Assembly (NCBI RefSeq): GCF_001468005.1
Contig: NZ_LNYY01000019.1
Span: 2,043,070-2,107,069 of the forward strand
Length of the DNA stretch: 64,000 nt
Source: Legionella steelei
GTDB taxonomy: Bacteria > Pseudomonadota > Gammaproteobacteria > Legionellales > Legionellaceae
Direction: 5' to 3'
Within the stretch, counting starts at the first letter, position 1. Each line of letters opens with the position of its first letter. The notes beneath the pieces are model-generated. The model was not told where the DNA came from. It saw only the letters and a list, made by a program, of their open reading frames with translations, and did no database searches. Position numbers and translations under genes: made by a program. Positions 4,081 through 12,427 of this stretch are shown piece after piece.

Positions 4081-4812
4081 ATGTCGTACACAAAGTTACA
4101 TCAAGAACCAAAAGAAAGAACTGCAGATTACAATCGAGAGTCAGAAAGGCACCTTGAGCACAAAAAAGGGCATGACGACACATACTCGCCTCGCCACACT
4201 ACTTACGCAAAAGCATCTAGCGTGCCAAGCAATCCACCGTCTGATGAAGACAGCATATTTGACTTATGCATGGAAGCCCCAGAAAAGAAAGCGCAATCAA
4301 GAGCGAGACTTAAAGGTGCGATGGAACAAGGATATACATTTGTAAAACAAAATGTACCTGGATTTTTCACTCCATTTGGCAGAAAAAATGTATTATTAGA
4401 AGAACTGGGACTGGATACTAAAAGAGAAGTCGCAATTGTTGCAACCTTGCCACTTAGTGCACCTGTCACGTTGACTCTTGTTACCGGTGCTGCCGCACTG
4501 ACGGCTGTAATCGCTGCCTTGACTACTGTTGGCAGCTTGCTTGCTGCTGCAGGTTATGGATTAAATAGCTTACGCGCAGGCAAAGAAGACTCAAGACAAT
4601 CTGCAAAAGATGCACTTGATGTTGCTGCCAAAGCAGCTCTTGTTACCACATTTGCTGCTTTAACTACAATGGCTGCTGCTATCGCAACCGCTTTGTCTCC
4701 CTTTGTGGCTGCGTTCTATCTGCTTGGCCGTACTGGTGCAACTGCTGTTGCTAAAATTGCTGAGTGTGCTCATTCTAATGACAACACCGAATCTCGTGGT
4801 TTAACAATGTAA
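4081..4812 (+). CDS. Unknown protein with hydrophobic C-terminal half
   Basis: 243 residues. Residues 1-115 are hydrophilic and rich in His, Lys and Glu. From about 118 to 225 it is Ala/Thr/Leu-rich and very hydrophobic, interrupted by a polar stretch (LRAGKEDSRQSAKD, about 168-181), suggesting two pairs of membrane-inserting helices. There is no signal peptide. The ATG at 4081 follows GAGGGG with proper spacing, so an overlapping frame starting at 4067 is a shadow. The layout (soluble N-terminus, late hydrophobic hairpins) is common among Legionella secreted membrane-targeted proteins, but no homologue is recognised. A 13-bp palindrome follows the stop. Confidence 0.65.
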   Translation: MSYTKLHQEPKERTADYNRESERHLEHKKGHDDTYSPRHTTYAKASSVPSNPPSDEDSIFDLCMEAPEKKAQSRARLKGAMEQGYTFVKQNVPGFFTPFGRKNVLLEELGLDTKREVAIVATLPLSAPVTLTLVTGAAALTAVIAALTTVGSLLAAAGYGLNSLRAGKEDSRQSAKDALDVAAKAALVTTFAALTTMAAAIATALSPFVAAFYLLGRTGATAVAKIAECAHSNDNTESRGLTM

Positions 4813-4822
4813 ATCGATTGCT

Positions 4823-4848
4823 TAAGTTGGGCTTTAAAGCCCAACTTA
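4823..4848. terminator. Perfect palindrome after the gene at 4081
   Basis: A 13-bp perfect self-complementary palindrome centred on GGGCTTTAAAGCCC starts 11 bp after the stop codon. No U-run follows directly, so it is a terminator-like or mRNA 3'-protecting hairpin rather than a textbook intrinsic terminator. Confidence 0.45.
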
Positions 4849-5004
4849 TCTAAAAACAAATGAATTTTTTGTACTTATTCAAATCATAATTTATACCCTC
4901 GCAAATTATCGTTATCTCCTGAAAACAAATTTTTCTTGTTTTCTTAAGTTATTCTGGTTAAAAATAGTAGGGACAGGAAGATTATTCAACAAAAGGGAAT
5001 TTAT

Positions 5005-6390
5005 ATGGCTACCAACGAAGATGAAGCTCGACTATTAATTGATCTCGATACGGAACAGGAAGTTAGACTAGGCGAGTCAGCAGAAATACACACCGTAGAC
5101 GAAGAAGCCGCACTACCTATCGATCTCGATACAGAACAAAAAGTAACACCAGCAACAGTCGAAGACACGCCGGAACAAATAATACGCAGTAAATTAAAGG
5201 TTGTTAACGAGACTGAACAAGATAAGCTCGTAAAAATTACCATCACTAAAGAAATATTTGAGCAAATCAGAAAAAGTCTGCAGGACACCGTCAAAAGTCT
5301 GGAAAAAAATCCAAGTATGTTCTCGCGAGCTGCAGAATACTGGGGTGAATTACCACTGTGGCAAAAAATTATTGGGGGAGTCGCATTAACGGTTCCTACC
5401 TTAATCCTGGGCATTGTTGCGCATATTGGTTTCCTTTTAGCAATTTGTGGGGTTACTGCGCTTACTTATGCAGCAGGAGGCATCATTCTTGATGATCATC
5501 ACAAATGCAGTACCAGTGCGGTCGAAAGCTTGCAAAAAGGCATTTTAGGCCTAGCTGACCTGCTTGAGCTAACCATTAATGCGCTGGATATTATCCGTCA
5601 ACAATTAGCCATTGAAATTAAAAAATTTACTGAAGAAAATGCAAAATTCAAAGCATACATTGAAGAGTTAAGTAAGAAAATTGATGCGATTGACAAACAA
5701 GTCATGGCCACGGCTAGAATTAATGACACGTTAACTGAAACCAAAGATGGATTAGTAGAAGTTTCCGGTGCACTTAAAGAAGGAGTGGAACGACAAAGCG
5801 ATTTAATGCAGCAAAATCAAGAGAAGTTAGATCGTATTACGGAAGGGTATAGAACCGCTCAAGAAGAGTTAGTGCAAAAAGTTCGTGAGGTAAAACAGGT
5901 GCGGCATGAACTGGGACAGGATCTTGATCGCGCTAAAGCGATGATAGATTCCCTACATACGGCAATAACCAAGCTGTCGGTCGATGCCATTGGCAATGAA
6001 GAACAACGCAAGGCGTTTCAAGAAAAATTAGATATTTTCATAAAGAATAAAGAAGTGAGCTTTCTTTTAATCGCTGATCGCATCTGTGAAGCAGAACGCA
6101 GACTGGCAATAGTACAAAAAGAATTAGAGCGTTCGAATGACCGCTATCAAGAGCTTCTTAAGGTACAAGAGCGGCATATAGACACACTCAAATCAATGAG
6201 CAGCCAAGCTTCTGCAGATCAAGCTCCGAGCCAAGCAAAGCTACAAGACGGCCGCGTAGATACACCGCAAACACAGGAGCCAATAATGAATCCTGTTAGC
6301 ATGATATTAGATAGGATTGGATTGCATGCACAGAAAGAACCAGGCGGTAAGCCAGGTGCAGAACGCACACCAACACCGCAATACAGCTAG
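5005..6390 (+). CDS. Unknown membrane-anchored coiled-coil protein
   Basis: 461 residues. Near the N-terminus an acidic motif is repeated: IDLDTEQEV at 12-20 and IDLDTEQKV at 39-47. A hydrophobic block (about 120-165, IIGGVALTVPTLILG..ICGVTALTYAAGG) probably forms a membrane hairpin. Residues from about 175 to 410 are strongly heptad-like coiled coil (many Glu, Lys, Gln, Leu). The tail is Pro/Gln-rich. The ATG follows AAAAGGGAA with good spacing. Membrane hairpin plus long coiled coil is a layout shared with Legionella Leg-type effectors, but this is resemblance of architecture only and no family is recognised. Hairpins follow the stop. Confidence 0.7.
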   Translation: MATNEDEARLLIDLDTEQEVRLGESAEIHTVDEEAALPIDLDTEQKVTPATVEDTPEQIIRSKLKVVNETEQDKLVKITITKEIFEQIRKSLQDTVKSLEKNPSMFSRAAEYWGELPLWQKIIGGVALTVPTLILGIVAHIGFLLAICGVTALTYAAGGIILDDHHKCSTSAVESLQKGILGLADLLELTINALDIIRQQLAIEIKKFTEENAKFKAYIEELSKKIDAIDKQVMATARINDTLTETKDGLVEVSGALKEGVERQSDLMQQNQEKLDRITEGYRTAQEELVQKVREVKQVRHELGQDLDRAKAMIDSLHTAITKLSVDAIGNEEQRKAFQEKLDIFIKNKEVSFLLIADRICEAERRLAIVQKELERSNDRYQELLKVQERHIDTLKSMSSQASADQAPSQAKLQDGRVDTPQTQEPIMNPVSMILDRIGLHAQKEPGGKPGAERTPTPQYS

Positions 6391-7130: not shown

Positions 7131-7435
7131 GAGAACCTCCTTGTTATAAGTGCTGAATAAAGTATAGTGTCACGAATTAGCAACACCGCCACTACCATAT
7201 CATTTAATTACCAACAAGCTAAAGTGCCATAGTGAGTTTATTCGCGTATTTTCAATCACATCACCCCCAAACTCCGATGCGAATTTAATATCCAAGCTGA
7301 TAGAGACAGATGCAAATACCGTCAAAACTGTTACAATGGCCAGCAGTTAACACTGAGTCATGCCTTGACAATTATTTCTTAAAAAACACCCATTCATAAA
7401 ATGGCAAAAGCCTAGTAGCAGACAAGGAGTATAAG
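7131..7435. other. Intergenic region between GST and the acyl carrier operon
   Basis: A 305-bp gap between divergent genes, so it must hold both promoters. A TTGACA stands at 7365-7370 on the plus strand but has no convincing -10 element at standard distance. The operon's first gene has AAGGAG at 7424-7429. No RNA gene or repeat seen. Confidence 0.4.
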
Positions 7436-7684
7436 ATGTCTTTAGAACGCGCTGCAATATATAACCGTTTGAACAAAACCTTTCGTGATGTTTTTGACAA
7501 TGAAAATCTATCTGTAACCGATGCAACCACCGCTAACGATATAGAGGAATGGGATAGCCTGAATCACATAACCCTTATCGTTGCCGTAGAAGCCGAATTT
7601 GGTTTCAAATTCAAAATGGGCGAGGTAGTGGTTCTACATAATGTTGGAGAAATGGTAGATATAATAGAAAAACAGGGAAAGTAA
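7436..7684 (+). CDS. Acyl carrier protein (stand-alone, operon-dedicated)
   Basis: 82 residues, ACP-sized. The phosphopantetheine attachment motif is EEWDSLNHI with Ser41. The following helix (LIVAVEAEFGFKFKMGEV) matches the helix II/III pattern of discrete ACPs, and of DltC more than of fatty-acid AcpP, which is usually more acidic with a DSLD motif. AAGGAG precedes the ATG by 6 nt. It abuts the MBOAT gene (stop TAA directly followed by ATG), so translational coupling is likely. Inferred role: it carries the acyl, perhaps glyceryl, group that the FkbH-like protein loads and the MBOAT protein exports. Confidence 0.9.
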   Translation: MSLERAAIYNRLNKTFRDVFDNENLSVTDATTANDIEEWDSLNHITLIVAVEAEFGFKFKMGEVVVLHNVGEMVDIIEKQGK

Positions 7685-9187
7685 ATGGGTATTACAACAT
7701 TTCGATTTTTTTGTTTCCTGGGTATTGCGAGTATTTTGTATTACCTTGTTCGCCCCCGTCAGCAATGGAAAATCTTGCTACTCGCCAACATTGTCTTTTA
7801 TATTGGCTCAGGACAAAACAAACTGAATTGGTTTATCCTATTTACGTCCTTGTCCGTATATTTTGGCGCAATGGCCATAGAAGGAACAAAACATAAGTCT
7901 CTTGCGTTTTATAGCACATTGGCCCTCAACCTGGGGTTTCTAATCTACTTTAAGTATTTCAATTTTTTTATACAGGAACTCATCAATCCATTTCTTAACA
8001 CCCATCACCTTTGGTATAACATATTGATGCCCGTCGGGATCTCGTTCTACACCTTACAAACTTTAGGTTATTTAATTGATATCAAAAGAGAGATGTATCC
8101 AGCAGAAAGGAACTATGGCAGATTTTTCCTCTTCGCTACATTTTTCCCAACCGTTTTACAAGGGCCCATTCATAAACACCAGGACTTGCAATCACAGTTA
8201 TTTGCGCATCATCAATTTGACTGGCAAAGATACTGTTTCGGCATGCAAAGGATTTTATGGGGACTTTTCAAGAAACTCGTTATCGCAGACCGGCTCGCAT
8301 TATTCGTGAATCCAGTGTTTGCAGACCCCCAGTATAATGTTGGCTGGATTATGGTGTTGGCCATTGTAGCCTTTGCGATACAACTCTATGCAGATTTTAG
8401 TGGCTGTATGGATATTGTGATTGGTGCCGGTGAAATGTTTGGTATCAAGATGACCGAGAATTTTCGCGCCCCATTTTTCAGTCGCTCAATTCAAGAATAT
8501 TGGCAAAGGTGGCATATTACCCTCGGGATTTGGTTAAAAGAATATATCCTGTATTCCGTGATGAAATCGAATTGGCTCCAAAAGTTGACCTCTTGGAACA
8601 AGGAACGGTTTGGCAAAAAGGCCGGGAATAAAATTTCCACCTACATTGCCTTATTCATATTATGGTTTGTGGTTGGGTTTTGGCACGGGGCAAGCTGGAA
8701 CTTTATTATAGGCACTGGGCTTTTGCATTGGTTTTATATCACTTTTGGCGATGTGGCTATGCCTTGGCGAAAAAAAGCGGTGGAAAAGCTAAAAATCAAT
8801 ACTGAAGCCTTCTCTTTCAAAGCAATGCAAATTGTGCGCACCTTTATTTTTGTCTGTATCGGGTTCGTATTCTTCCGCACCAAAACTCTTGCTGATGCGG
8901 GGAATGTGTTCAAGAGCATAACATTTGACAACAATTTTTGGATTTTCTTTGATGGAGAATTGCTTGAATTTATGAATAAACAAGATTGGACGCTTGTTAT
9001 TTGCGCAACAATTGTGCTGTTTACTGCAGATACGATGAGGCTTAAAGTCTCGCTACGAGAAAAGATAGCCGAGCTGGATATTGTTTCAAGGTGGTTTATC
9101 TATTTTACGGCCCTATTTAGTGTGGTGATTTTCGGCATGTATGGCCCCGGTTATGATGTTAAAAAGTTCATATACGGAGCATTCTAA
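7685..9187 (+). CDS. MBOAT-family O-acyltransferase (DltB/AlgI-like)
   Basis: 500 residues, about ten or more membrane segments. The inner-membrane acyltransferase hallmarks are present: YWQRWHITL with His277, and FWHGASWNFIIGTG with the invariant His334, preceded by the PVGISFYTLQTLGY segment. Family members (DltB, AlgI, PatA) move an acyl group from a cytoplasmic donor through the membrane to an extracytoplasmic acceptor. It sits directly after a carrier protein, as DltB does after or before DltC, and overlaps the next gene by one base. Length and topology fit a complete enzyme. The acyl donor and acceptor are not shown by sequence; the context suggests a carrier-bound donor. Confidence 0.92.
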   Translation: MGITTFRFFCFLGIASILYYLVRPRQQWKILLLANIVFYIGSGQNKLNWFILFTSLSVYFGAMAIEGTKHKSLAFYSTLALNLGFLIYFKYFNFFIQELINPFLNTHHLWYNILMPVGISFYTLQTLGYLIDIKREMYPAERNYGRFFLFATFFPTVLQGPIHKHQDLQSQLFAHHQFDWQRYCFGMQRILWGLFKKLVIADRLALFVNPVFADPQYNVGWIMVLAIVAFAIQLYADFSGCMDIVIGAGEMFGIKMTENFRAPFFSRSIQEYWQRWHITLGIWLKEYILYSVMKSNWLQKLTSWNKERFGKKAGNKISTYIALFILWFVVGFWHGASWNFIIGTGLLHWFYITFGDVAMPWRKKAVEKLKINTEAFSFKAMQIVRTFIFVCIGFVFFRTKTLADAGNVFKSITFDNNFWIFFDGELLEFMNKQDWTLVICATIVLFTADTMRLKVSLREKIAELDIVSRWFIYFTALFSVVIFGMYGPGYDVKKFIYGAF

Positions 9188-10611
9188 TGACCATCAGCGT
9201 AAAAAAGTCGCTCATTTTTATTGGTATCTCTGCGGTTTTGTTCTATTTTGTCAGTGAGCTATTTATAGACAAAAGGGTTTATCGTCCAATCAATATGTCC
9301 TTGTACACCGTTTCTGGTTTTTATAAAGAGCCTAAAAACACCCTTGATATCATTTCAATTGGCTCAAGTCAGTGTTATACGGCGATTATCCCTGCAGTTT
9401 TATGGCGAGATCATGGCTGGACGTCCTATGATTTTTGTGTGGAGCAACAGCCGTATTTAGTAAGCTACTACTATATGAAAGATGCGGTTAAACGTCACCC
9501 AAATGCTCTTATTCTTCTTGAAATAGGAGAGTTCCATCCGCGTAAACAAATATCGGATGAAATGATCTATGTCAATCTCAACGATATGCAGTTCTCATTC
9601 AATAAATTATCGGCCATCCACGCGGCAAATCCGCGTCATTGGTTTGATTATCTATTTACCATCAATAAATATCATTCCACTTGGAGTTTTTTATCTAAAT
9701 CCAAAATAGATAATATGTTTTATAGAGGTTATAGTTTCAATAAAGGCTATGGTGAGGCGACTGATGACTGGTGGGAAGAGGGAAAAGAGCCCAAAGATTA
9801 TGACCTCTTACAGACAGACAGGGAGAAATTAGACCCAGATTCCGAAAAGGATTTGCTACGGATCATCAACTACGCCAAAAAAAATAATGTAAAATTGGTA
9901 CTTTATAAAGCCCCATCCACTAATTTAAATGCGAAGAAAAACGTAAATTATATAATGGATATTGCCAGCAAATATAATATTCCTTTCATGGACTTCAACA
10001 CACAAATGATAGGACAACATCATTTAAATGTGCCGCAAGCACAACAGATGACCGCTCTGCTTGCTGATTATCTTTCTAAATACTATACCTTTGCGGATAA
10101 ACGTAAAGACCCCAAATATGCCCATTGGGAGCAAAGTGTTTCCTATTTGAAACAGCAAGAGCAAAAATATAGGATGCGTAAAACCAAAGATCTTATCTCT
10201 CTATTGAATATCCTAAAAGGTAATCCCTATTACATAGTCCTCTTATCAGTCAAAGACTCCGCCACACGCCCCTACATTGATGTCGATCGGAATATAATAG
10301 ATACATGGCAAAGTTTTGGACTAAAACCAGATGTATTTATGGCGAGTCATTTTGGCAATTCATACATCGCGGTATTGGATGGTGGGAGGGTCATCCATGA
10401 GCAGATAAGTCCCGACAAATTGAGTTGGAAAAAAGCGCTGAAAGGAATTGACCGTGTATTTATTGAAAGCAGCGGATTTTTCTCAGGAAACTTCTCCTCT
10501 ATCAAGATAAACAATCAGGAACAATCGCCCAACTCCAGAGGGATTAACATCGTTGTCTATGATAAGTGGATGAATGATTTTGTATTGCAAACCACTTTTG
10601 ATGCGTTGTAG
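9187..10611 (+). CDS. Membrane-anchored SGNH-like (DltD/AlgJ-type) protein with ILEI-like C-terminal domain
   Basis: 474 residues. One N-terminal membrane anchor (about 8-25) would place the rest in the periplasm. The SGNH-like domain has block I SIGSSQCYT (G59-S60-S61) and a late HHLN (His278/His279-Leu-Asn281), as in DltD/AlgJ-type transferases. The Asp usually three residues before the catalytic His is not at that place, so catalytic competence is open. Residues about 345-474 read like an ILEI/FAM3-type domain: SYIAVLDGGRVIHEQIS, FIESSGFFSGNFSSIKINN, and SRGINIVVYDK...FD. The start overlaps the MBOAT stop by one base. Likely role: periplasmic partner that completes acyl transfer. Domain calls are from memory of the families. 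Confidence 0.72.
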   Translation: MTISVKKSLIFIGISAVLFYFVSELFIDKRVYRPINMSLYTVSGFYKEPKNTLDIISIGSSQCYTAIIPAVLWRDHGWTSYDFCVEQQPYLVSYYYMKDAVKRHPNALILLEIGEFHPRKQISDEMIYVNLNDMQFSFNKLSAIHAANPRHWFDYLFTINKYHSTWSFLSKSKIDNMFYRGYSFNKGYGEATDDWWEEGKEPKDYDLLQTDREKLDPDSEKDLLRIINYAKKNNVKLVLYKAPSTNLNAKKNVNYIMDIASKYNIPFMDFNTQMIGQHHLNVPQAQQMTALLADYLSKYYTFADKRKDPKYAHWEQSVSYLKQQEQKYRMRKTKDLISLLNILKGNPYYIVLLSVKDSATRPYIDVDRNIIDTWQSFGLKPDVFMASHFGNSYIAVLDGGRVIHEQISPDKLSWKKALKGIDRVFIESSGFFSGNFSSIKINNQEQSPNSRGINIVVYDKWMNDFVLQTTFDAL

Positions 10612-10636
10612 TTGTTCTGATGCAAGGGAGTTATTG

Positions 10637-12427
10637 ATGTTAAATTATCCATTAGATGCACATTTAATTTTAAGAAAGAAACACGCGATAAAGAAAGAAC
10701 TGCTGTTGAAGGAACATTTTCTTACGAAGAATATAGCCATTTTGGGTGGTTCTACAACGGCAGAAATCAAAAATATTTTAGAACTATTCCTTTTGGATAT
10801 TGGTATTAAACCTAACTTTTATGAGTCGAAATATAATCAATATTTTGAAGAAGCTGTTTTTGATAATGAGCCCTTGCAACAATTTAATCCCGATATTATT
10901 TATATTCACACGACGAATAAAAATATTAGCCATTACCCAACAATGCATCACACGTCTGAAGAAATTGATATCATTCTTCATAATGAGTTCCAGAAGTTTT
11001 CTAGTATATGGTCTTCTCTGACGAGCAAATATCATTGTGCGATTATTCAAAATAATTTTGAACTGCCGCAAAATCGGATATTAGGCAATTTGGATTTTTA
11101 TGATGTTCGCGGCTCAGTGCATTACATTCATAGACTAAATTCTTTTTTTGCTGAAGAGGCCCAAGCAAGAGCCAACCTTTATATTAACGACATTCATTAT
11201 TTGGCAGCATCCATAGGATTATCTACTTGGTTTGATAAAAGCATGTGGTATGCCTACAAATATGCATTAAGTTATACCGCAATACCGTTCTTAGCCAAAA
11301 ACATATCCGCTATCATTGGGGCACTGTTTGGGGCATTAAAAAAATGCATGGTGTTGGATCTGGATAATACCTGTTGGGGTGGGGTGATAGGAGATGATGG
11401 TTTAAATGGAATCGCAATAGGCAAAGAAACCGCCATTGCCGAAGCACATACTGAGTTTCAGCAGTATGCAAAAACGCTCAAGGATAGAGGTGTTGTACTT
11501 GCTGTATGCTCAAAGAATGACATAAATCATGCCAAAGAGGGCTTTATGCATCCGGATACTGTGTTAATCGATCAGGATTTTGCAGCTTTTACAGCAAATT
11601 GGGAGCCAAAACACCATAATATTGCCAAAATTAGTGACACCTTGAGTCTTGGTTTAGACAGTTTTGTTTTTATTGATGATAATCCAGCAGAGCGACACAT
11701 TGTCCGCTCTAATCTTTCGATGGTCAGCGTGCCCGAAATTGGCAGTGACATCGTTGATTTTATAGATCATATTGATAAAAATCATTATTTTGAAACCGTA
11801 TCGCTTGCAAGTGATGATCTACAGCGCGGCGCATTTTATCAAAAAAATAAAGAACGACGCACACAAGAGTCCCACTTCACTGATTATGGCGAATACCTGC
11901 ATTCCCTGGAAATGAATGCAGAAATCAAGGCATTTACCCCAGTTTATCTTGCGCGGATTACCCAGCTCATTAACAAAACGAATCAATTTAATCTGACTAC
12001 CAAAAGATATACTTTGGCAGACGTTACAACCATTACACAGGATGCAAATTATATCACTCTATATGGCAAGCTAGAGGATAAATTTGGTGATAATGGTTTG
12101 ATATCTATAATAATTGGCGAGTTAAAAAACAAAGAGTGTCATATTGAGCTATGGCTTATGAGTTGCAGAGTTCTTAAAAGAACTATGGAATATGCCATGT
12201 TCGATGCCCTGGTGGCCAAGTGCCATACTTTAGGAATAAAACAAATTATTGGCTACTATTACCCAACTGAAAAAAACAATATGGTGTCTACGCTATATCA
12301 AGATTTTGGATTTAATGCCTTAGCAACTGATGCGCACCATTCGGTCTGGAGTATGGATGTATCCAACTACATTAATAAAAATCAACATATTAGGATAAGC
12401 TCGAGTAATCTGTCGGATGAACTCTAA
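10637..12427 (+). CDS. FkbH-like HAD-IIIC / GNAT protein (carrier-protein acyl loader)
   Basis: 596 residues from the ATG at 10637, which has GGGAG 6 nt upstream; the frame extends to 10574 but without a ribosome site. The N-terminal domain (1-200) has a degenerate SGNH look (AILGGSTTAE). The HAD domain starts CMVLDLDNTCWGGVIGDDG with D241 and D243, then AVCSKND (Ser292/Lys293), then FVFIDDNPAERHIV. The C-terminal GNAT-like part contains WLMSCRVLKRTMEYAMFDAL. In polyketide pathways FkbH proteins load glyceryl from 1,3-bisphosphoglycerate onto a carrier protein. Here the partner would be the ACP at 7436. Last gene of the operon, 25 bp after its neighbour. Confidence 0.88.
   Translation: MLNYPLDAHLILRKKHAIKKELLLKEHFLTKNIAILGGSTTAEIKNILELFLLDIGIKPNFYESKYNQYFEEAVFDNEPLQQFNPDIIYIHTTNKNISHYPTMHHTSEEIDIILHNEFQKFSSIWSSLTSKYHCAIIQNNFELPQNRILGNLDFYDVRGSVHYIHRLNSFFAEEAQARANLYINDIHYLAASIGLSTWFDKSMWYAYKYALSYTAIPFLAKNISAIIGALFGALKKCMVLDLDNTCWGGVIGDDGLNGIAIGKETAIAEAHTEFQQYAKTLKDRGVVLAVCSKNDINHAKEGFMHPDTVLIDQDFAAFTANWEPKHHNIAKISDTLSLGLDSFVFIDDNPAERHIVRSNLSMVSVPEIGSDIVDFIDHIDKNHYFETVSLASDDLQRGAFYQKNKERRTQESHFTDYGEYLHSLEMNAEIKAFTPVYLARITQLINKTNQFNLTTKRYTLADVTTITQDANYITLYGKLEDKFGDNGLISIIIGELKNKECHIELWLMSCRVLKRTMEYAMFDALVAKCHTLGIKQIIGYYYPTEKNNMVSTLYQDFGFNALATDAHHSVWSMDVSNYINKNQHIRISSSNLSDEL

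Follow-up and report, generated by a model that had tools for sequence, protein, structure and literature searches.

A predicted MBOAT-SGNH surface acylation system with a dedicated carrier and an FkbH-type candidate loader in Legionella steelei

Four genes of Legionella steelei (genome of 4.2 Mb), located at positions 7436-12427 of a 64,000-nucleotide stretch of contig NZ_LNYY01000019.1 (hereafter, the window), encode a carrier protein, an MBOAT acyltransferase, an SGNH-like protein and an FkbH-type HAD-IIIC protein. We consider it rather likely that they constitute a carrier-dependent MBOAT-SGNH system for surface acylation in which the FkbH protein acts as the loader. What is new here is a variant of MBOAT-SGNH acylation with an FkbH loader and a shuttle motif fused to the acyltransferase; a search of the open-licence literature found no description of FkbH, carrier and MBOAT-SGNH in combination, which is not proof of absence. 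A preliminary description of this DNA had already recognised the four genes and their likeness to the Dlt system, and both observations stand. All four open reading frames (ORFs) are present and open, with spacings of 0, -1 and +25 bp, the residues that had been singled out (Ser41 of the carrier, His277 and His334 of the MBOAT, Asp241 and Asp243 of the FkbH protein) are found in place, and the carrier, the DltB-fold MBOAT and the SGNH-fold partner are common to both systems.

Components of the predicted pathway

The MBOAT acyltransferase (500 residues; 7685..9187, forward strand; His277 in RWHITL and His334 in FWHGASW) scores 52 bits with the Pfam MBOAT family (cut-off 27) and 140 bits with the NCBIfam DltB model and, because the latter value is under the equivalog cut-off of 375, it is, as judged from its sequence, DltB-like rather than DltB. 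The best Foldseek matches of its predicted model (pLDDT 87) are DltB 6bug (E 1.3e-13) and 8jem. In an alignment of 24 MBOATs, including that of the window, His334 and Tyr497 are invariant and His277 is kept in at least 90% of the sequences. The likeness to DltB that had been noted earlier holds for the fold, but the C-terminal end of the protein had been missed: its last six residues, FIYGAF (9167..9184, forward strand), correspond to an FXYXXF acyl-shuttle motif that contains Tyr497 and is fused to the MBOAT, as in PatA. According to passages of PMC12148441, MBOAT-SGNH systems relay the acyl group through the tyrosine of this C-terminal motif, which is found on a separate protein, DltX, in the carrier-fed Dlt system and on the MBOAT itself in PatA; in the same passages, the other MBOAT-SGNH pathways have no carrier comparable to that of Dlt.

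As the FXYXXF tyrosine sits on the MBOAT, as it does in PatA, no separate DltX would be needed, and between positions 6001 and 14000 of the window the MBOAT is the only frame of at least 25 residues that ends exactly in FXYXXF (one looser match near the cassette is a 35-residue antisense frame with two extra residues after the motif). The tail was seen in 5/5 of the MBOATs first inspected and, in its exact form, in 47 of the 53 MBOAT frames found near an FkbH gene, while of the other six frames three are variants, two are split genes and one is spurious. The motif alone is not special, given that 54 of 57 MBOATs sampled from the phylum also have it.

The FkbH-type HAD-IIIC protein (596 residues; 10637..12427, forward strand) is the candidate loader. 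It scores 279 bits with TIGR01686 (cut-off 147) and 59.5 bits with Pfam FkbH_N (cut-off 27), and has 3SLR as a solved relative (E 3.2e-59). An alternative start at 10574 overlaps the SGNH gene, and by eye the ribosome binding site context at 10637 is more plausible. Six residues, namely D241 and D243 (in DLDNT at 241), K293, D347, D348 and C510, are identical in 81/81 FkbH sequences (that of the window and those of the 80 loci described below), and the invariant Cys510 is, by sequence, a candidate for a thioester step. The loading of glyceryl from 1,3-bisphosphoglycerate onto carriers by FkbH has been proposed by homology (in a section of PMC7489565), and part of a review likewise presents FkbH proteins as glyceryl loaders that connect 1,3-bisphosphoglycerate with a carrier (PMC8949500). 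By analogy with these FkbH proteins, which belong to polyketide and peptide pathways, glyceryl would be the best guess for the cargo. A second FkbH-domain gene of the genome (L029, C19:2197414), only 26% identical, with a DUF4214 domain and lying between two group 1 glycosyltransferase genes, was considered for the same role and judged to have another one.

The carrier (82 residues; 7436..7684, forward strand) has its serine, Ser41 (codon 7556-7558), in EWDSLNH. Its PP-binding score of 20.3 bits is just under the Pfam cut-off of 20.8, and seven NCBIfam acyl carrier protein models match it, all of them below their cut-offs. The solved chains closest to it by sequence are named acyl carrier proteins, the best being PDB 2LML (E 1.1e-17), which we take to be GmACP3 of Geobacter metallireducens. 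GmACP3 presumably has the motif WDSLxH, and the window carrier, with WDSLNH, fits the WDSLxH/N motif of GmACP3-like carriers; this carrier type is another feature that the preliminary description had missed. Among the 73 carrier hits of the 80 loci, W[DN]S occupies the serine site in all 73, WDS[LMIFH].[HNQ] is found in 70 and WDSL.[HN] in 49. GmACP3 has reportedly been proposed to serve lipopolysaccharide biosynthesis, and is said to have been given a role in lipid A.

The SGNH acyltransferase-like protein (474 residues with an N-terminal helix; 9187..10611, forward strand) has no Pfam or NCBIfam match, and its predicted model (pLDDT 78) adopts an SGNH fold, in agreement with its earlier designation as SGNH-like. 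The best Foldseek match of this model is DltD 6pfx (E 1.7e-5), and the hits further include PatB and numerous other SGNH proteins. Ser61 (codon 9367-9369), His279 (codon 10021-10023) and Asn281 are invariant among 20 aligned sequences, including that of the window. The list of structural matches covers mostly residues 27-302, and from about residue 346 there is an extra beta-rich C-terminal part (346-474) that has neither a Pfam match in the window protein nor a solved sequence relative at a useful E-value. For this part, a sub-threshold ILEI match (E 0.016) in a relative at L098 is a lead; the ILEI domain family occurs in animal proteins as well.

Recurrence and acquisition of the gene set

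Genome contigs were scanned with eight FkbH sequences, which yielded at least 559 relatives, and the best 80 of these were kept as loci. A same-strand MBOAT lies within 4 kb of FkbH in 51/80 loci (31/50 among those with a full 4 kb on both sides), another four have one further out on the same strand and seven have one on the opposite strand. A carrier is present anywhere in the locus in 72/80, and on the same strand in 50 of the 51 loci with a near MBOAT. SGNH partners near the MBOAT were found in 22/80 loci with a two-sequence profile and in six more through a DHHW/AlgX cluster, so that the full set of FkbH, carrier, MBOAT and SGNH with family support is present in 28/80 loci; in three further loci, a gene of cluster c28 without Pfam match is SGNH-like by eye only. 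The pairing of these parts recurs across phyla, and the set is not unique.

The order of the genes in these FkbH-carrier-MBOAT sets varies, and the loci with a near MBOAT are spread over several phyla (they include Clostridia, Bacilli, Myxococcales, Bacteroidetes, Pseudodesulfovibrio, Helicobacter, Lentisphaerae, Treponema, Alphaproteobacteria and Rhodanobacteraceae). Plasmid records of Rhodobacteraceae SC52 and Sinorhizobium meliloti (pSymB) also contain carrier, FkbH and MBOAT. In pSymB, a gene annotated as "TonB-dependent receptor" (L007:8301-9530) resembles the SGNH partner by eye, with a hydrophobic stretch, GGS and DPGH. The pSymB of S. meliloti Rm41 encodes a VOC protein in addition to the carrier, FkbH, MBOAT and SGNH-like proteins, and all five genes are single, full-length frames free of internal stops. 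A Ser/[DN]xxH motif test fires in 24/33 of the SGNH ORFs found with the profile and in 1/445 other ORFs of at least 250 residues, a control from which clusters c9, c13, c28 and c40 were left out; in these four clusters it fires in 0/23 ORFs, and no further SGNH partner was gained. The nine SGNH partners outside the profile rest on cluster membership (six DHHW and three c28, the latter by eye only).

As a control, 57 MBOATs of the phylum (one per genome) were inspected within 4 kb, where FkbH is a neighbour of 1/57 and a carrier of 2/57 (8/57 loci have less than 4 kb on one side). Because the FkbH loci and the phylum MBOATs differ taxonomically, the comparison within loci (51 near against 4 far) is to be preferred as a control, with the caveat that not as many loci extend to 8 kb. 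The association of the four genes is more than chance, and the recurrence of the same parts as sets in other genomes argues that they belong together.

In Legionella steelei, the set also appears to have arrived as a whole. A glutathione S-transferase (GST) gene and a thiolase gene are adjacent in 17/26 congeners, with a gap of 79-301 bp, whereas the gap in the window is 5378 bp; in the other nine congeners, no GST was found within the stretch examined. In closer congeners, similarity to the empty site is retained at both flanks of the cassette, and the gap and this similarity together place the insertion at approximately 7171..12427 (no strand assigned). At E 0.001, the window SGNH protein had no relatives among 56 other genomes in a sample of relatives or among the 397 others in a partly overlapping phylum sample. 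Given the empty site in congeners and the absence of SGNH relatives from the sampled genomes, the four genes were probably acquired jointly as one cassette, and a joint gain in turn supports their being a unit. The abutting genes, the single insertion and the recurrence elsewhere all favour the one unit that had been suggested earlier, and the module is real, horizontally moved and recurrent.

The neighbours of the cassette, in a Pfam scan of four ORFs, are the GST, the thiolase and two ORFs without accepted family. The latter two (243 and 461 residues; window positions 4081-6390) adjoin the cassette; the 461-residue one matches EspA below the threshold, and in several congeners its relatives have these same genes as neighbours. 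The thiolase was considered as a fifth gene of the operon and rejected, its leader being conserved at the empty site of congeners that are free of the cassette. A scan for regulatory signals gave 29 promoter-like sites (20.9 +/- 5.0 in shuffled sequences) and four terminator-like ones (4.1 in shuffles), and was not used.

A phage or viral origin was likewise rejected: single-protein scans of viral contigs, which reach close relatives only, revealed no relative of the FkbH or the SGNH protein. Two faecal records named Bacteriophage sp. matched in a phage collection, and one of them (L004, marked UNVERIFIED) was examined. It has an FkbH-carrier pair behind two DHHW/AlgX-like genes, together with Pfam matches to Mur ligase, NUDIX and glycoside hydrolase families, and because of these bacterial-type genes it is probably bacterial DNA, despite its filing as a bacteriophage.

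Tailoring genes and alternative loaders

Several gene families recur around the 80 loci, as judged from neighbour clusters that were named by Pfam on one representative each: MaoC (21 loci), SDR (15), VOC/glyoxalase (14, of which 10 on the same strand), split transketolase (10 and 9), DHHW/AlgX-like (9), aldo-keto reductase (4) and methyltransferase (4). Tailoring genes (MaoC, SDR, VOC, transketolase, aldo-keto reductase or methyltransferase) lie near and on the same strand in 30 of the 51 MBOAT-linked loci, and 21 have none; where such enzymes are near, the delivered group may be modified. The three VOC proteins that were scanned all have methylmalonyl-CoA epimerase as their best model, below its cut-off (58, 30 and 29 against 115 bits). 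The N- and C-terminal halves of a split transketolase are found in or beside FkbH-carrier-MBOAT clusters (L063, L069, L080, L104, L043, L058 and L084), some of which also have an aldo-keto reductase; for these loci, one idea is that a ketol unit is transferred to the acyl group on the carrier. The Pfam scan of its neighbours revealed no tailoring gene beside the window cassette, and the window set represents, within a variable and widespread family, the version that lacks tailoring enzymes.

The two ends of the pathway also occur in other company. Metabacillus pB218 combines a carrier, an AMP-binding enzyme and an MBOAT with a hypothetical gene that is SGNH-like by eye. Here a different loader accompanies the same exporter, an indication that loaders can be exchanged. 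In Niveispirillum, the gene that comes after an FkbH-carrier pair is annotated as a polysaccharide acetyltransferase of the WcbI family and, in two congeners (L024 in G028 and L025 in G032), the pair occurs, with FkbH 57-59% identical, in genomes that have no MBOAT match anywhere. Considering both cases, the pair of FkbH and carrier is portable. Directly 5' of FkbH in L024 lies a methyltransferase gene.

A working model and its alternatives

In the mechanism that we propose, a phosphopantetheinyl transferase would convert the carrier into its holo form; an ACPS-family gene is present in the genome. By extension from FkbH proteins of other pathways, the FkbH protein would take glyceryl from glycolytic 1,3-bisphosphoglycerate, dephosphorylate it and load it onto the carrier, perhaps by way of Cys510. 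The MBOAT, whose motif and fold are observed, would accept the loaded carrier on the cytoplasmic side of the membrane, and the acyl group would travel through the MBOAT channel to Tyr497 in the tail of the same protein, a reaction modelled on PatA and DltX. The SGNH protein, in which the fold is predicted and the serine and histidine are in place, would then take the group on Ser61 and deliver it to a hydroxyl of a surface polymer. As no tailoring gene was seen beside the cassette, the predicted cargo of the window system is unmodified glyceryl, while the VOC, MaoC/SDR, transketolase and methyltransferase genes of its relatives could yield variants of the acyl group. We infer the cargo, the chemistry and the acceptor of the window system; as for the last of these, the preliminary description had named lipopolysaccharide or capsule, and nothing in the window, with the neighbours given above, points to either one.

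A number of observations weigh against this model. The acyl group is extrapolated from the FkbH proteins of other pathways, and the 80 loci are the closest of at least 559 and no census, with a skew to Clostridia. SGNH partners with family support are missing from 23/51 MBOAT loci. In the window SGNH protein, the triad is incomplete, given that Gly276 takes the place of the [DN] in the usual [DN]xxH and a stretch of about 14 residues ahead of it is absent; the match to DltD 6pfx has a TM-score of only 0.30 on the query, and a second aligner scores other SGNH proteins equal to or above DltD. Surface-polymer genes, moreover, make up only a part of the sampled neighbours of the MBOAT loci, and glycosyltransferases are few among them (group 1 in four and family 2 in three, with 90/278 neighbour ORFs sampled), and the Pfam scan of its neighbours found none next to the window cassette. 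Finally, 29/80 loci have no MBOAT within 4 kb and, as 21 of these do contain a carrier, FkbH-carrier pairs serve other enzymes too.

This last point could also mean that FkbH-carrier and MBOAT-SGNH are separate modules that happen to be neighbours, with the MBOAT using acetyl-CoA like PatA and the carrier feeding something else. Apart from the 21 loci and the congeners L024 and L025, such a separation is seen in L010, where FkbH, carrier, MaoC and SDR are found with no MBOAT within 10 kb, and in L005, where the best plasmid relative of the window SGNH protein adjoins an MBOAT and neither FkbH nor carrier was found in the 20 kb around them; both loci, like the two congeners, speak against the proposed system as well. 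Additionally, MBOATs with the same tail mostly have no carrier nearby (tail in 54/57, carrier in 2/57). But the four window genes abut and arrived as one cassette, and FkbH, carrier and MBOAT are together in 50/80 loci of varied gene order and several phyla, which makes two modules improbable. Even less probable is a lipid A or fatty acyl carrier, as proposed for GmACP3, with the MBOAT placing a hydroxy fatty acid on lipid A and FkbH having a separate job. It would agree with 2LML, presumably GmACP3, being the best solved relative of the carrier and with the role in lipid A that is reportedly proposed, but the same carrier accompanies FkbH and MBOAT in Clostridia, which produce no lipid A, and no fatty-acid enzyme was found in the window set by Pfam and NCBIfam scans. 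A smaller departure from the proposed system would keep its machinery and change the cargo, either to a different small activated hydroxy acid or to a group altered before MBOAT-SGNH export (lactyl, epimerised or methylated glyceryl, or longer units). While the 30/51 loci with tailoring genes and the epimerase-like VOC proteins would fit such a cargo, it is unlikely in light of the 21/51 loci without these genes, of their absence beside the window cassette and of the naming of glyceryl as FkbH cargo in parts of PMC7489565 and PMC8949500.

Returning to the carrier-dependent system with an FkbH loader, the loci can be read jointly, and tentatively, as one pathway extending over several phyla. 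In it, acyl groups would come straight from glycolysis as 1,3-bisphosphoglycerate, C3 or tailored units would be formed on a dedicated carrier by polyketide-style enzymes (epimerase, dehydratase, ketoreductase, transketolase and methyltransferase), and a self-acylating MBOAT would hand them to the SGNH protein. If this is true, a third layout, with carrier and fused shuttle, would stand beside Dlt (carrier and separate shuttle) and the PatA type (acyl-CoA and fused shuttle), and bacterial surfaces would have a new acyl type, a glycerate ester for which a glycolytic acyl phosphate would supply the energy in place of adenylation or acetyl-CoA. MBOAT-SGNH exporters would be a chassis for exchangeable loaders. 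It would also give a testable function to many genes annotated as "HAD-IIIC phosphatase", "acyl carrier protein" or "hypothetical" that adjoin MBOATs, many of them in Clostridia of animal guts, and would offer, for GmACP3-type carriers, an alternative to their suggested role in lipopolysaccharide that can be put to the test.

Relationship to known systems

Parts of the window set have counterparts in quite different settings. GmACP3 (2LML, as we assume) is the best solved relative of the carrier, and we know of no link between GmACP3 and FkbH. The glycerate genes of tetronate and methoxymalonyl polyketide pathways combine FkbH with a free-standing acyl carrier protein, as the window does, but here there is no polyketide synthase and the partner is a membrane acyltransferase pair. 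A surface glycan that bears a glyceric acid derivative is found in Campylobacter jejuni, whose flagellin glycan carries di-O-methylglyceroyl (part of PMC3068675) and whose cj1302 is an FkbH-domain gene within the flagellar glycosylation locus (part of PMC7099621); in those portions of the two papers, no MBOAT-SGNH route is described and cj1302 is not connected with the glyceroyl group.

The other comparisons are those with two kinds of MBOAT-SGNH systems. With Dlt (DltA, DltB, DltC, DltD and DltX; D-alanylation of teichoic acids), the window set has in common the carrier, the DltB-fold MBOAT and the SGNH-fold partner. It differs in its loader, which is an FkbH-type HAD protein instead of the adenylating DltA (no AMP-binding match was found in the four genes and the four neighbour ORFs, the rest of the genome not having been searched for DltA), and in its shuttle motif, which is fused to the MBOAT and not carried by DltX. 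With PatA/PatB-type acetylation, it has in common the C-terminal FXYXXF on the MBOAT and the SGNH-fold partner, and differs in encoding a carrier and a candidate loader. The window set thus reads as a hybrid, with a Dlt-type donor and a PatA-type shuttle.

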